Virus record (IMG/VR): IMGVR_UViG_3300020472_000066
Span: 1-39,348 of that record
Length of the DNA: 39,348 nucleotides
Direction: 5' to 3' (one strand)
Source: a virus
In this document: positions 1,921 to 7,961 of the stretch, in pieces
Position numbering within the stretch: the stretch's first letter is position 1
Layout of the letters: each line of letters opens with the position of its first letter
The notes under the pieces: model-generated
The model's input: the letters and a program-made list of their open reading frames with translations, nothing else
Told to the model about the DNA's origin: nothing
The model's database searches: none
Program-made: the position numbers and the translations under genes

Positions 1921-4448
1921 CTGATATTCGCTTTGGAGGTGGTGAACCATGTACATTAAACACCCCAGAGACTGCTGATCTAGGTGTTACGTTCGAGTTT
2001 CTTGAATATCCATCAGATCCAGCGAAGACGAATATAGATCCTCTTACAGGGGAAACTGTAGACTATCATATACCAGAGAGAGACTTAAACTCGGTAATGC
2101 ACGATTCTGTCATTATTGAGTTACCTGATCCTGGACCTCTCAGACCAGGACCATCCAATTGCGGTAAAGTAACTAGAGATATACCAAACAATTACCCTTC
2201 ACTTAGTAATCAGGAACCAGCGAGAGTATTTTACGACTATTATCCGAATGAACTATCATATGATATGGTTACATCGGACACTTGGTTTAGTTACCTATAC
2301 GATACCTCTGATAAGATGGGTATAGTAGGTACACCTTGCTATCATATTGAAGATGAAGATGGTACAACTGTAAGTACACCTCCTGGTGGTGGAAGTCCTT
2401 CAAGTTCTTCTTCTTATGAATATACTTGCGTACCTTGTAACAATTTTACTTGTACTCCAGCCGAAACCACATTAAAGTATACAGCACCCCAAGATTTGAC
2501 TGGCGACCCCGACTGCCCGCACCCCACACTATTCGGGTTTGGAACCACAAGTTACAAATTAGCCTTTAAGTATGATGCCTTGGCAACTACACAACCTACT
2601 GGAGTCCAAGATATAGAAATGTCTTATACTGGTTCTGGGTATACTGATGCATGGGATCAGGGATCAAACCAAGGAATTACATATGAATCCTCTCAGAACC
2701 CTTGGCAAGCTACAGAAGAGTCATTTGGTACTATACAAATCTTCTCTATTTCTTTAAGCGGGGGCACTGGACTTAAACTCCAAGTAAAAATAGAACCAAA
2801 ATTTGACGATTCGGGAACGTCCACAGTATTCTCAGGTACTGAATGGACTATACTAAACATCATGGATCCTGGAACAGGGTATACATTGAATGATACTACC
2901 CAATTGTCTTATGCACATACTCATCCTGATAATAGTACAACTACACTATCCGTTAATATTAAACTTAGTGCCGTTGGTGATGTAGAGATTGTTAACCCTC
3001 AATCAGGGTTTGATAGACTAGTTGAGGGTGATACTCTTAATGGTCATAAGATTTTACGTGCATTTCATACTGATATTAACAATTTTCCCTATCATGTGGT
3101 GTATTTAGATGGTGCAGGGAGCGATTTTACCAAAGAAACGCAGTATACATCGTCTAGAAGTCACCAAATTACCGCAAAAGCGGGTTATGGCATCAAAGAT
3201 CGGGCAATTTTGATCGGAATTTACGAATTTTTGGATAAATCCGTCCAATTTGTTACTGCAAGACTCACAAAAGGTGCTCCAGACCTCTTTAATACGCTAA
3301 AACAACCAAATTGTAACGTTACAGTTACAAATGGAGTAGTTACGGGGGTATCTATAACTGATGGCGGTGAAGGGTGGAATCAACTAACACAAGAGCCTAT
3401 ACTAGAGATAACAGCACCTAAAATACCTAAGCGAAGTGTAGGTTCTATCTACCAAGCAGGTGAACTGGTTGATGGTGAAGAGGAACCAGCAAAGAAAAAT
3501 GCTTCTGTAAAGGGTATTTTCACGTCAGGTGTGCTAACTGGTGTTCAAATTCTTGATGGCGGTAAAGGATACCCAGATGATTACCCTCCTCAGATATGGG
3601 TGAGGAACGTTTTTAAGGAAAATCCAAAAACATTAGGTGTTTCTGCGTATGATGCGAACACACCAAACATAAAAAGAGGTATCCTTAAGGCGTATGCGGA
3701 AGAAGGATTGAAGATTAGTAATGAATCATACGCACATTGGGATAATTATAATGATAATTTAAAAGCATCCGTTACTGCTAAGAGCATTGACGCTGCTTAT
3801 AGTGTTGATAAAGACCCATCAGTTGATAGATATCATGAAATTGGTCAACGGAAGTATACAAAAGACGTAATTGATAATCTACGTCAATTCCATGATAATG
3901 ATAGGAATAAGGGATATGTAGATAAAGTAGGTCTTCAAGACCTATCTGCTACGTATAGGGACATGTTAAAGAACCATGTAGAGGACATAGATAAGCATTG
4001 GAATGGTGTTCTTGACAAATATACACAAGAGAAGGTACCCGAAAAGGTAAAATATGATGCTAACTATGTTCAGACAATACAAGGAAGTCTTACTCAGTTA
4101 CCTTATGCTACGGAGAATACTAAATATTTGTTAAAGCAGTATCGTGCTGATCCTACTCAACATGATACGATAACAATCGAGCTTAGTTGTAAGCCTACTA
4201 ATGCGGGATGTGCACATATTAATTGTAATGCACCTGCAGGAACTACGCCAAACCCTAATACTAGCACTAGTACTGACGGAGATGGTAATACAGTTGTTAC
4301 AACATTGACGTATACTATGTCTAATATGTTAGGTGATGGGTGTAAAGAGTGGACTGCAAAGGGAGATTGTAAAATATATCACGATTTAACTAGATCAATG
4401 GAGACATTTGATCGTGCAGTTAAAGCTTATGGTAATCCTTATTCGTAA
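1902..4448 (+). CDS. putative virion structural protein (848 aa), upstream of the PAAR-like tip
   Basis: ATG at 1902 is preceded by a plausible Shine-Dalgarno AGAGG (1890-1894), although the frame overlaps the previous gene by 19 nt. The protein starts M-G-C-K-R-L-T-D-I-R-F-G-G-G. Residues 1-160 hold proline-rich linkers. A Cys cluster (Y-T-C-V-P-C-N-N-F-T-C) lies near 175-186. Two degenerate glycine repeats, D-G-G-E-G-W near 487 and D-G-G-K-G-Y near 551, match the GSGY repeat of the giant protein downstream. Residues about 590-750 are charged and helical, and a Cys-rich tail (S-C-K-P-T-N-A-G-C-A-H-I-N-C) follows near 760. T4 places the gp5 spike just before gp5.4, so a spike or hub-associated role is possible by position only. 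No lysozyme domain is seen. A locally C-rich stretch near 2490-2560 is unlike the rest. Confidence 0.55.
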   Translation: MGCKRLTDIRFGGGEPCTLNTPETADLGVTFEFLEYPSDPAKTNIDPLTGETVDYHIPERDLNSVMHDSVIIELPDPGPLRPGPSNCGKVTRDIPNNYPSLSNQEPARVFYDYYPNELSYDMVTSDTWFSYLYDTSDKMGIVGTPCYHIEDEDGTTVSTPPGGGSPSSSSSYEYTCVPCNNFTCTPAETTLKYTAPQDLTGDPDCPHPTLFGFGTTSYKLAFKYDALATTQPTGVQDIEMSYTGSGYTDAWDQGSNQGITYESSQNPWQATEESFGTIQIFSISLSGGTGLKLQVKIEPKFDDSGTSTVFSGTEWTILNIMDPGTGYTLNDTTQLSYAHTHPDNSTTTLSVNIKLSAVGDVEIVNPQSGFDRLVEGDTLNGHKILRAFHTDINNFPYHVVYLDGAGSDFTKETQYTSSRSHQITAKAGYGIKDRAILIGIYEFLDKSVQFVTARLTKGAPDLFNTLKQPNCNVTVTNGVVTGVSITDGGEGWNQLTQEPILEITAPKIPKRSVGSIYQAGELVDGEEEPAKKNASVKGIFTSGVLTGVQILDGGKGYPDDYPPQIWVRNVFKENPKTLGVSAYDANTPNIKRGILKAYAEEGLKISNESYAHWDNYNDNLKASVTAKSIDAAYSVDKDPSVDRYHEIGQRKYTKDVIDNLRQFHDNDRNKGYVDKVGLQDLSATYRDMLKNHVEDIDKHWNGVLDKYTQEKVPEKVKYDANYVQTIQGSLTQLPYATENTKYLLKQYRADPTQHDTITIELSCKPTNAGCAHINCNAPAGTTPNPNTSTSTDGDGNTVVTTLTYTMSNMLGDGCKEWTAKGDCKIYHDLTRSMETFDRAVKAYGNPYS

Positions 4449-4457
4449 AAAATAACT

Positions 4458-4997
4458 ATGGCAAGAGGAGCAGCACTATACGTTGGTAATTGTAGCGGTC
4501 ATGGAAGAGCAACTAGTGCATTTCATCACCCTGGATTAGGTGGTGGTATCTTAGGTGGATGCCGTCACGCAACTTTAGCGGGTCAAATTGTTAATAAACC
4601 GCTTAGATTGACAAATAGTGTTGCTATTTGGCCACCTGAACCGCAAAGACCCGCAGGAGAAACTGTAACAGACGTAGTAATTAACGATAAAATACCTATA
4701 GTTGATCAGGATGAGCTCATTAGACACCCTACTCCAACTAAATTTGGTACAGTTTCCATTGGTTTTAAGTGTTTTTGTATTCGTAGAACACCTGCTTGGC
4801 ATTGTACGGACGGAGATAGTGGAGGAAGAGAACCTTCAGATGGTCATATACGGAAATTATACTCAACTACGAAGACAGTTTTCGTAAATGGTAAACTTTT
4901 AGGTAGAATAGACGATCCACTTGGTAATGATACTACAAAATATCCGTGTAAATCCGTTGTTTCTGGTTCAAGTGAAGATGTATTTGTCGGAAACTAA
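4458..4997 (+). CDS. PAAR-like baseplate central-spike tip protein (gp5.4-like)
   Basis: 179 residues beginning MARGAALYVGNCSGHGRATS. Glycine-rich turns, His and Cys (H15, H23-H24, C35, H37) and the C-terminal pattern 'T-V-F-V-N-G-K-L-L-G-R-I-D-D' with 'V-S-G-S-S-E-D-V-F-V-G-N' match the PAAR/gp5.4 type of repeat-containing spike caps. In T4, gp5.4 caps the gp5 needle, binds a metal ion with His and Cys, and is the first part to meet the cell envelope. It is longer than a minimal PAAR domain because of an insert (about residues 55-140) with additional Cys (C105, C107, C116). Its position just ahead of wedge genes fits. The exact metal ligands cannot be assigned by eye. Confidence 0.72.
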   Translation: MARGAALYVGNCSGHGRATSAFHHPGLGGGILGGCRHATLAGQIVNKPLRLTNSVAIWPPEPQRPAGETVTDVVINDKIPIVDQDELIRHPTPTKFGTVSIGFKCFCIRRTPAWHCTDGDSGGREPSDGHIRKLYSTTKTVFVNGKLLGRIDDPLGNDTTKYPCKSVVSGSSEDVFVGN

Positions 4998-5011
4998 AAA
5001 TGTGCTATAAT
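4984..5011 (+). promoter_or_regulatory. possible weak promoter before the basic peptide gene
   Basis: A perfect -10 TATAAT (5006-5011) lies 24 nt before the ATG at 5036, with only a partial -35 match TTGTCG (4984-4989) at 16-nt spacing. The sequence also contains an A/T run that loosely resembles late promoters. It may give the small basic peptide separate expression from the structural operon. Confidence 0.35.
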
Positions 5012-5035: not shown

Positions 5036-5182
5036 ATGGCAAAAGCGTCAAGTGGTATAAGTGGTGGCGATTTTATTCAATCACCACCTAAAAAGACTAG
5101 ACAAGGAAGAGGAAAGCATACAAAATATGCCGCAACCTCTAGAAATGGAGCAAAAAAGAGATATCGTGGGCAAGGTCGCTAA
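5036..5182 (+). CDS. strongly basic 48-aa peptide
   Basis: ATG at 5036 to TAA at 5180-5182. The peptide starts M-A-K-A-S-S-G-I-S-G-G-D-F-I-Q-S-P-P and its remaining 30 residues contain about 14 Lys, Arg or His (K-K-T-R-Q-G-R-G-K-H-T-K-Y, then N-G-A-K-K-R-Y-R-G-Q-G-R). I recognise this as a small conserved cyanophage protein of unknown role, from memory. It resembles a histone tail or protamine in being disordered and rich in Lys/Arg/Gly/Ser. It could bind DNA or RNA or be a virion component. It stands 27 nt before the SET-domain gene, which raises the possibility that it is that enzyme's substrate. No cysteine or hydrophobic core is present. Confidence 0.8.
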   Translation: MAKASSGISGGDFIQSPPKKTRQGRGKHTKYAATSRNGAKKRYRGQGR

Positions 5183-5185
5183 ATA
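5178..5185 (+). promoter_or_regulatory. late-promoter-like GCTAAATA box over a stop codon
   Basis: GCTAAATA covers the TAA stop of the 48-aa peptide (5180-5182) and lies 24 nt before the ATG at 5210. It is one base from NATAAATA. The placement matches the late-type box at 33032-33039, which also contains a stop codon. Confidence 0.35.
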
Positions 5186-5209
5186 ATAGTTAGTTATTAT
5201 GCTAGTGTG

Positions 5210-5491
5210 ATGTACAAAGCATTACCAGACGGACTATTCATATCAAATAGTCCTATTTCAGGACAAGGATTGTTTTCTAAACTACCTATAGAAATTGGTA
5301 CTGAATTAGGTATGTCACATCTTGTTATCAACGATGAAATTTATAGAACGCCATTAGGAGGATTCATTAATCATTCTCCTTTTCCAAATTGTGAGAAATA
5401 TAAGGTAGATAACAAATATTATGTGAAAGTCATTACTCCCATTAAACCGATGGAGGAATTGACGCTAAATTACACATTTTATAAAGTTTAA
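5210..5491 (+). CDS. minimal SET-domain protein (putative lysine methyltransferase)
   Basis: The frame is open from GTG 5207, but ATG 5210 is the better start (93 aa). SET hallmarks are in order: G18-x-G20-L-F near the N-terminus, the N54-H55-S56-x-x-P59-N60-C61 motif, and M-E82-E83-L-T-L-N-Y88 at the end. Known SET enzymes transfer methyl from S-adenosylmethionine to lysine, the NHS..PNC and EEL..Y motifs forming the knotted active site. At 93 residues it is shorter than the 119-aa chlorella virus vSET. It has no pre- or post-SET Cys clusters. Its TAA overlaps the ATG of gp25 by one base, so it belongs to the baseplate operon. Possible substrates are the adjacent Lys/Arg-rich peptide, a virion protein or a host protein; none is shown by the sequence. 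Confidence 0.8.
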   Translation: MYKALPDGLFISNSPISGQGLFSKLPIEIGTELGMSHLVINDEIYRTPLGGFINHSPFPNCEKYKVDNKYYVKVITPIKPMEELTLNYTFYKV

Positions 5492-5910
5492 TGGCACTAA
5501 AAGACATTACGAATAAGGAATTTACGAAATCTAGAAGTTTCAAGGATATTGCGGTGTCTTTTGCTAAAAATTCTTTTACTGACGACGCAGCTATCGTGAA
5601 AAATGAAAATTCGATAAAACAGTCTGTAAAAAACCTAGTTTTGACTCAAATGGGTGAAAAACCATTTCAACCTACTAAAGGATGTCGTGTTAATGCTCTT
5701 CTTTTTGAACCACTAGATCCCTTTACTGCTGATGCATTAAAGGAAGAAGTACTAAATACCATTAGGCAATATGAACCAAGGGTAAAGATTAGTGACTGTA
5801 CGGTCACTCCAATAATTGAAAGTAACAAAATCAATATTTCTATAACATATAGAGTTGTAGGATTACCTATAGTGGAAACAATAGCATTTATTTTACAGAG
5901 ACCTGAATAA
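5491..5910 (+). CDS. 25: baseplate wedge subunit gp25
   Basis: 139 residues, close to the 132 of T4 gp25. The GPW/gp25 family signature is visible: an N-terminal strand/helix region, L-T-Q-M-G-E-K-P-F-Q-P-T-K-G (51-64), L-L-F-E-P-L (70-75), and the conserved E95-P96-R97 with R-V-K-I. The C-terminal strands end I-A-F-I-L-Q-R-P-E. In contractile tails gp25 joins the wedge to the sheath and to gp6 and gp53, and is needed for sheath initiation. The start shares one base with the SET stop, and the stop shares one base with the gp6 start (TAATG at both junctions), showing tight coupling. Confidence 0.95.
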   Translation: MALKDITNKEFTKSRSFKDIAVSFAKNSFTDDAAIVKNENSIKQSVKNLVLTQMGEKPFQPTKGCRVNALLFEPLDPFTADALKEEVLNTIRQYEPRVKISDCTVTPIIESNKINISITYRVVGLPIVETIAFILQRPE

Positions 5911-7961
5911 TGCAACCGAATAATTTAACAGCATTAGACTTTGAGGATATCAAAGCTTCTATTAAGTCGTACCTAAGAACTAGAACCGAATTTAGTGATT
6001 ACGATTTTGATGGTTCTACTTTAGCATATTTAATTGATACTTTATCATATAATACCTATTATACAGCATTTAATGCAAATATGGCATTAAATGAAGTATT
6101 CTTACCATCAGCAACTATTAGAGATAATGTTACTAATATTGCAAAGCTTTTAAATTATACTCCACGATCAATCATTGCTTCTAAGGCATTTATTGAATTG
6201 ACATGCCCAACACAATTAATAAGTGGAGAATATCCATCTACCGCTACTTTACCAAAAGGTGCAGTTGCTGCAGGTGGAAATTATATATGGAATACTCTTG
6301 AAGATATTACTGTAAATGTAGATCAGACCACTGGAGATGCAATATTTAAATGTGTTCCGATATATGAAGGACAATCTGTAACTTTTAGTTATGTTGTTAA
6401 TACTTTTGCGAAACAAACTTATAGAATACCTGCTGAAGATGCTGATGTTTCTAAGTTAGTTGTTAGAGTAAAACCAAACGAATCATCTACCGCTTCAGAC
6501 GTTTATAATAGGGTTGATAATGTTACTAACCTAACTGGTATAAGTAGGGTCTACTTCCTCTCTGAAGGCGAGGATATGAGGTATGAGGTGAGGTTTGGTG
6601 ATGATAGTGTAGGTAGAGCAGTAAAAGATGGTGAAGTTGTAGAATTATCGTATATTGTTACTGATGGTGCTGCAGCTAATGATGTTGCGAAATTCAATTT
6701 TGTAGGAAAAGTAAATGATAATAATGGAAATTCTTATGGTCCAGCTTTTGTTTCGTTAGAAACTAGAAATAAGTCATATCTTGGGGAATCTGCTGAAAGT
6801 ATTGAATCAATTAAATACAATGCACCCAGATTTTATGCTTCTCAATATAGAGCAGTAACAGCACAAGACTATGCAATTATCACTAAAAACATCTATACTA
6901 ATGCAGATACTGTTATAGCATATGGTGGAGATTCATTAAATCCTCCGACTTATGGAAAGGTTTATATTGCTGTTAAAACAAAGACAGGATCTAATCTAAA
7001 TGATGCTACTAAAAAGGATTTACAAGATAAATTAAGATCATATTCTATGGCATCTATTGATCCTGTAGTAATAGATCCTGATGATGTATATGTCTATATC
7101 AAACTATTTGCTCAATATGATACTGGAAGAGGTAATACTTCTGAAATACAATCTAATATACAAAAAGCAATTGGTGATTGGGCAGCACAGACTAAGATAA
7201 ACAATTTCAATTCTACATTTAGATTAGGAGCATTTGAAAAGGCAGTTACTTTATCAGATAATAGTATTGCTGATGTTTCTTCTCAAGTTAGTATCTTAAA
7301 ATATATTAAACCAACAAGCAATCAAACTAATACGTATTGTATTTCTACTGGTGCTGGATTGTATAATAGTGCTCCAAGTAATACTAGTGGAGATGGTGGT
7401 ACAGGTACAGGTGATGATAACGTTTGTAAGAAAGAACCTGTGTTATTATCAGGAACTTTTAGAACTGATACTCGACCAGGTGTAGATCAACAATTTGAAG
7501 ATGATGGATTTGGTAATTTAAGAATGTTCTATAATACAGGAACAAGAAAAATCTATACAAGTGACTCTGCTGGATCAGTAAATTATGATACTGGTCAAAT
7601 ATGTTTTGGACCAGTTAATATTGTTGGTACTGGTTCTAATTTACCACCTTCAACTGCTACTACTATAACAGATCCTATTAGTGGAGCAGGGTCAATAACA
7701 GATCCTACTGGTCTTCCTACAGATTTAAAAATCCCTGTTAATTTAATACCAGCAAACAATTCAACTATTCCTGCTTCAACTCCTGGAACTATTGTTAATA
7801 TTGTCTCACCTGAAGTAACTGTTGCTCCAATTGGAACTACTCCACCTGCCACAATTCCACTAAATAGTTTGACACCGACGACGTTCAATCAAACTCCTTC
7901 TGTAGTTGAAGTTCCAGACTTGGCAAATGCGGGTGCAATTAATACTTCTAGTTGTTTCTAA
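5910..7961 (+). CDS. 6: baseplate wedge subunit gp6 (baseplate J-like)
   Basis: 683 residues against 660 in T4 gp6. The N-terminus has the typical gp6/J pattern: D-F-E-D-I-K-A-S-I-K-S-Y-L, then D-Y-D-F-D-G-S-T-L-A-Y-L-I-D-T-L-S-Y-N-T-Y-Y and N-M-A-L-N-E-V-F-L-P-S-A. A second conserved region is R-A-V-T-A-Q-D-Y-A-I-I-T-K near 314-326. After about residue 500 the chain becomes Gly/Pro/Thr-rich, with I-P-V-N-L-I-P-A-N-N-S-T-I-P-A near 610 and a Val/Thr/Pro tail ending in S-S-C-F. gp6 forms the inner ring that joins adjacent wedges. The next gene starts 4 nt after its stop. Confidence 0.95.
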   Translation: MQPNNLTALDFEDIKASIKSYLRTRTEFSDYDFDGSTLAYLIDTLSYNTYYTAFNANMALNEVFLPSATIRDNVTNIAKLLNYTPRSIIASKAFIELTCPTQLISGEYPSTATLPKGAVAAGGNYIWNTLEDITVNVDQTTGDAIFKCVPIYEGQSVTFSYVVNTFAKQTYRIPAEDADVSKLVVRVKPNESSTASDVYNRVDNVTNLTGISRVYFLSEGEDMRYEVRFGDDSVGRAVKDGEVVELSYIVTDGAAANDVAKFNFVGKVNDNNGNSYGPAFVSLETRNKSYLGESAESIESIKYNAPRFYASQYRAVTAQDYAIITKNIYTNADTVIAYGGDSLNPPTYGKVYIAVKTKTGSNLNDATKKDLQDKLRSYSMASIDPVVIDPDDVYVYIKLFAQYDTGRGNTSEIQSNIQKAIGDWAAQTKINNFNSTFRLGAFEKAVTLSDNSIADVSSQVSILKYIKPTSNQTNTYCISTGAGLYNSAPSNTSGDGGTGTGDDNVCKKEPVLLSGTFRTDTRPGVDQQFEDDGFGNLRMFYNTGTRKIYTSDSAGSVNYDTGQICFGPVNIVGTGSNLPPSTATTITDPISGAGSITDPTGLPTDLKIPVNLIPANNSTIPASTPGTIVNIVSPEVTVAPIGTTPPATIPLNSLTPTTFNQTPSVVEVPDLANAGAINTSSCF

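Follow-up and report, generated by a model that had tools for sequence, protein, structure and literature searches.

The window analyzed here is a virus record of 39,348 bases (IMGVR_UViG_3300020472_000066), presented as one strand, in which genes for a PAAR-like protein, a basic peptide, a SET-domain protein, gp25, gp6 and a giant ORF follow one another as in a T4-like baseplate operon (Table 1). The initial annotation had placed two small ORFs in such an operon. Both were found where it located them, encoding 48 and 93 amino acids and lying 27 nt apart, and the PAAR gene upstream together with gp25 and gp6 downstream bears out the setting. The SET ORF starts with ATG, although an in-frame GTG at position 5207 is a possible alternative start, and its stop codon overlaps the ATG of gp25 in the sequence TAATG (5489–5493). 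Judged by their profile matches, neither ORF is a chance frame, because the first belongs to phrog_516 and the second matches both PF00856 and phrog_28741. A TATAAT sequence at 5006–5011, situated 25–30 nt before the start codon of the peptide and within the short gap that follows the PAAR gene, is a possible promoter.

Table 1. Features of the peptide–SET locus, with positions as numbered in the window.
Feature	Position	Strand	Basis
PAAR-like spike-tip protein (phrog_281), upstream neighbor	4458..4997	+	PHROGs E 3e-25
48-aa basic peptide, phrog_516, core cyanomyovirus gene	5036..5182	+	PHROGs E 3e-26
93-aa minimal SET-domain protein, phrog_28741, probable protein-lysine methyltransferase	5210..5491	+	profiles, fold
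GxG motif of SET domain, G18-Q19-G20	5261..5269	+	alignment of 57 sequences
NHSxxPNC motif, SET residues 54-61	5369..5392	+	N54/H55 invariant (57 sequences)
EELxxxY motif, SET residues 82-88	5453..5473	+	Y88 aligned with vSET residue 105
gp25-like baseplate wedge subunit	5491..5910	+	profile searches
gp6-like baseplate wedge subunit	5910..7961	+	profile searches

Most of the window is occupied by the giant ORF, which encodes 8,356 amino acids over 25 kb (7966–33036) and whose first half includes a YHYH domain as well as a baseplate-wedge-like region. Counterparts of comparable size occur in P-RSM6 and S-SM1. A passage in PMC3037559 reports that T4-GC969 of S-SM1 was found in virions.

The 93-aa protein matches the Pfam SET model PF00856 locally, over residues 50–88, with an E-value of 9.7e-9 (36.0 bits against a curated cut-off of 22.4). 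It also belongs to phrog_28741 (E 2e-32), a family annotated as of unknown function. Searches of NCBIfam returned no match for the window protein and weak matches to AnkI/LegAS4 for three of its relatives, and none of the defence-system models matched. A PDB profile search and an AlphaFold model were built from 57 relatives. The profile search retrieved KMT2C (E 3e-8) and vSET (E 2e-7 over residues 7–88). The model, with a pLDDT of 92.3, superposes on vSET over 85 residues (rmsd 2.0 Å, Z 11.7) and also matches MLL1 (Z 11.9); as modeled, the SET fold spans the whole 93-aa protein. The SET-domain identity first suggested from two motifs is thus upheld by Pfam, by the PDB profile search and by a fold match over the full length.

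Both of those motifs are present, as NHSPFPNC at residues 54–61 and EELTLNY at residues 82–88, and a GQG at residues 18–20 can be added to them. Across the 57 sequences, N54, H55, G20, Y88 and Y91 are invariant, and G18 is conserved in at least 90%. N54 and H55 are the counterparts of the Asn and His with which SET7/9 contacts SAM (PMC1282579), while Y88, which follows EEL, is the tyrosine at the catalytic position and falls on residue 105 of vSET. The initial annotation had named a missing SAM pocket as a point against its proposal; instead, the SAM-contacting Asn-His pair and the tyrosine proved to be invariant. The gene is also under strong purifying selection, with a median pairwise dN/dS of 0.14. 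Taken together, the fold, the invariant SAM and tyrosine residues and the low dN/dS suggest that the protein very probably functions as a SAM-dependent lysine methyltransferase. Only five residues, TFYKV, follow Y88 (pLDDT <50 for the last three), and a post-SET segment appears to be lacking. A dimer or a partner may therefore be needed to close the lysine channel.

Several known systems can be compared with this protein. The SET domains of the KMT2/MLL group (PDB 6u9k, 5f59) provide the best profile and fold matches, but only their catalytic core is matched, and the phage protein lacks a pre-SET segment, apparently also a post-SET segment, and partner subunits. Like vSET (PBCV-1 A612L; PDB 1n3j, 3kma), it is a small stand-alone viral SET domain. 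It differs from vSET, to which it is ~25% identical, in having fewer inner residues and a shorter C-terminus, and it is indeed the smaller of the two, as had been claimed (93 versus 119 residues in 1n3j). Proteins of this family, being shorter than vSET, are convenient for exploring how small a SET domain can be and still catalyze. vSET methylates H3K27 of its eukaryotic host. The virus of the window is a T4-like phage, and histone H3 is not expected to apply as a substrate, since T4-like phages infect bacteria, which have no H3. Prokaryotic SET proteins include cpnSET, Gö1-SET and LegAS4/AnkI, the last of which were the weak NCBIfam matches mentioned above. In contrast to cpnSET, Gö1-SET and LegAS4, the phage protein has no added domains and sits in a different genomic setting. 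A short SET domain with an R-x-PLGGFINH signature is shared with phrog_28741, represented by T4-GC 716 of P-SSM7, and with SET proteins of marine Flavobacteriaceae and Porticoccaceae. These relatives are annotated only as unknown or hypothetical, and the bacterial ones are longer, at ~100–120 aa.

The neighboring peptide is strongly basic, with seven Lys and six Arg against one acidic residue (pI 11.75). In the phage collection, 451 records, almost all from cyanophages, contain a member of phrog_516, a family with the conserved core PKKTRQGxxxxTKxxATSRNxAKKRYRGQGR. In all 80 loci examined, the peptide lies upstream of gp25, at a distance of 18 to ~1,465 nt and once of ~4 kb. Its structural model is of low confidence (pLDDT 61), and by itself the peptide is probably unfolded. 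No relative of solved structure was found at an E-value of 1, and a match to StpA (E 0.035), which fell far below the cut-off, was treated as compositional. Cyanophages with smaller genomes, such as Syn5, S-CBP42 and S-CBS2, have remoter versions that keep this C-terminus. Distant relatives or look-alikes that end in KKYRGQGK or KKYKGQGR, for example Syn5 gp19, were also seen in other phages of the survey (loci L080, at 5292–5438, and L093–L095). Small basic peptides of this sort perhaps form a broader family among phages.

The space between the peptide and gp25 is filled differently in different phages. Elsewhere (in loci L022, L108, L071, L134 and others) it holds genes of the 2OG-Fe(II) oxygenase type (two families, seen in 15 and 2 loci), heme oxygenase, purM, purC, or families of small proteins without known function, and a passage in PMC3037559 describes a hot spot of small genes between gp46 and gp25. 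The SET gene is mobile, and IMG/VR contains at least 595 relatives. In other phages it lies in nucleotide-sugar, LPS-type or glycosyltransferase-type clusters, near an hli-like gene or beside kinase-like genes (all labels assigned by eye from sequence); between or by nrdB and talC; or, in Kolga-like phages, beside a gene for an AAA protein. A partner gene recurring across these groups of contexts was sought, and none was found. Bacterial relatives are stand-alone proteins in contigs of marine Flavobacteriaceae and Porticoccaceae, and in Porticoccaceae they adjoin FabA/FabB-like genes (names read from sequence). The distant SET domain of Pseudoalteromonas phage PH1 (locus L005, 4473–5303) is fused to a tail-fibre-related domain (phrog_12032, phrog_24280).

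The initial annotation had read the pair as a possible enzyme–substrate cassette, in which the SET protein would methylate the lysines of the adjacent peptide and so tune nucleic-acid binding or virion packing. Peptide and SET gene are true neighbors in many marine T4-like phages, adjacent and co-oriented, and they overlap or touch in P-RSM6, AG-345-P14 and many more IMG/VR loci. The peptide is basic, is predicted to be unfolded and carries invariant lysines. Because known SET enzymes act on small basic DNA-binding proteins, with archaeal Gö1-SET methylating MC1-alpha and chlamydial cpnSET the histone-like Hc1 (PMC3980110), the proposal is kept alive, at a low probability. The association, however, is one-sided. 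Loci in each scan were the best 80 matches, from fragmentary and partly redundant contigs, and are therefore biased toward relatives of the window; even so, among the best 80 peptide loci, only five had a SET gene nearby and 75 had none. S-SM1, too, has the peptide, and no SET gene was found in it. Conversely, the SET gene is found where the peptide is lacking, in the complete genome of Kolga, in all 71 Kolga-like loci, in 72 of 80 loci from another clade (two more of which have gp25 and no visible peptide), in several records of 29–66 kb and, as the distant version, in PH1. P-SSM7 carries both genes, but unlinked, with the SET gene at 164 kb and the peptide at 51 kb, ~113 kb apart. Where the SET gene lies in the baseplate region, it adjoins gp25 in 54 of 59 loci, compared with 25 of 53 for the peptide; other genes split the pair in the remaining 28. 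Moreover, conservation at K19, K30 and K41 is the same in 50 peptides that have SET alongside and in 72 that do not. In a tree of 85 SET proteins, which rests on few alignment columns, the baseplate position is largely confined to a single large group, relocations are few, and the state of touching or being separated from the peptide has switched repeatedly. Within the clade of the window, the order peptide–SET–gp25 is ancient and has largely persisted; this might stem from a functional connection and counts against the explanation preferred below. Examined from SET to peptide and from peptide to SET, the cassette was rejected as the leading explanation. Of the earlier interpretation, the SET domain, the baseplate operon, the basic and probably unfolded neighbor and the recurring order all stand; the pairing of enzyme and substrate is not supported. 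Since the SET gene is a widespread accessory gene of ocean phages, whereas the peptide belongs to the phage core and is mostly seen in its absence, the two probably do not form an enzyme–substrate pair and are neighbors because insertions are frequent at this site.

It is about as improbable that the substrate is a baseplate protein, with gp25 and gp6 as the obvious choices, and that methylation affects assembly or stability of the tail. The near-constant position of gp25 directly after the SET gene and the overlap of the two genes in the window argue for this, but the SET gene is also found in genomes and places that have no gp25 or gp6, including Kolga, and gp25 normally occurs without SET. 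Equally doubtful is a degenerate or non-enzymatic SET fold that serves as a structural or binding module. The very short protein, its apparent lack of a post-SET segment and the fusion in PH1 would suit such a role, which is difficult to reconcile with SAM and tyrosine residues that are invariant in 57 relatives and with strong purifying selection.

The explanation judged likely is a minimal, horizontally spread SET methyltransferase that acts in trans on a phage or host substrate which the neighboring gene does not specify. Under this explanation, the 93-aa protein would be a catalytically competent minimal lysine methyltransferase from a stand-alone family common to marine phages and marine bacteria. 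Its gene would be an accessory one, which in T4-like cyanophages and related phages has entered the gap that separates gp25 from the conserved basic peptide. Sharing an operon with, and overlapping, late baseplate genes, it would presumably be co-expressed with them, and the enzyme would act in trans during infection on lysine residues in some protein of the phage or the host, with the peptide as only one candidate among others. Given the varied contexts, the lack of a recurrent partner and the stand-alone bacterial relatives, the enzyme probably encounters its substrate in trans, and the substrate would not have to be encoded next door.

How phages methylate lysines in proteins has hardly been explored, and full-text searches of the literature on phage SET enzymes found no relevant paper, which makes the family mildly notable. 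It is still labeled as unknown despite its many relatives in a single viral collection, and it points to an unstudied protein modification that takes place while abundant ocean bacteria are infected. A broader idea, though an unlikely one, is that in several unrelated groups of ocean phages the minimal SET protein methylates either a protein of the host or a nucleic-acid-binding or virion protein of the phage, which in T4-like phages would be the phrog_516 peptide. If true, a regulatory modification resembling that of histone tails would operate in phage infection.

Some minor observations concern SET genes in contigs assigned to cellular genomes. In bins of marine Flavobacteria/Bacteroidetes (loci L180, L185 and L186, at about position 4000), a bacterial SET relative lies between argC-like and proC-like genes in a cluster resembling one for arginine biosynthesis, the gene names again being read from sequence. 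Locus L181, from a Pelagibacter bin, is a phage contig within a bacterial bin, and locus L176, from a bin labeled Euryarchaeota, is a phage contig that carries the PAAR–peptide–SET–gp25–gp6 operon.
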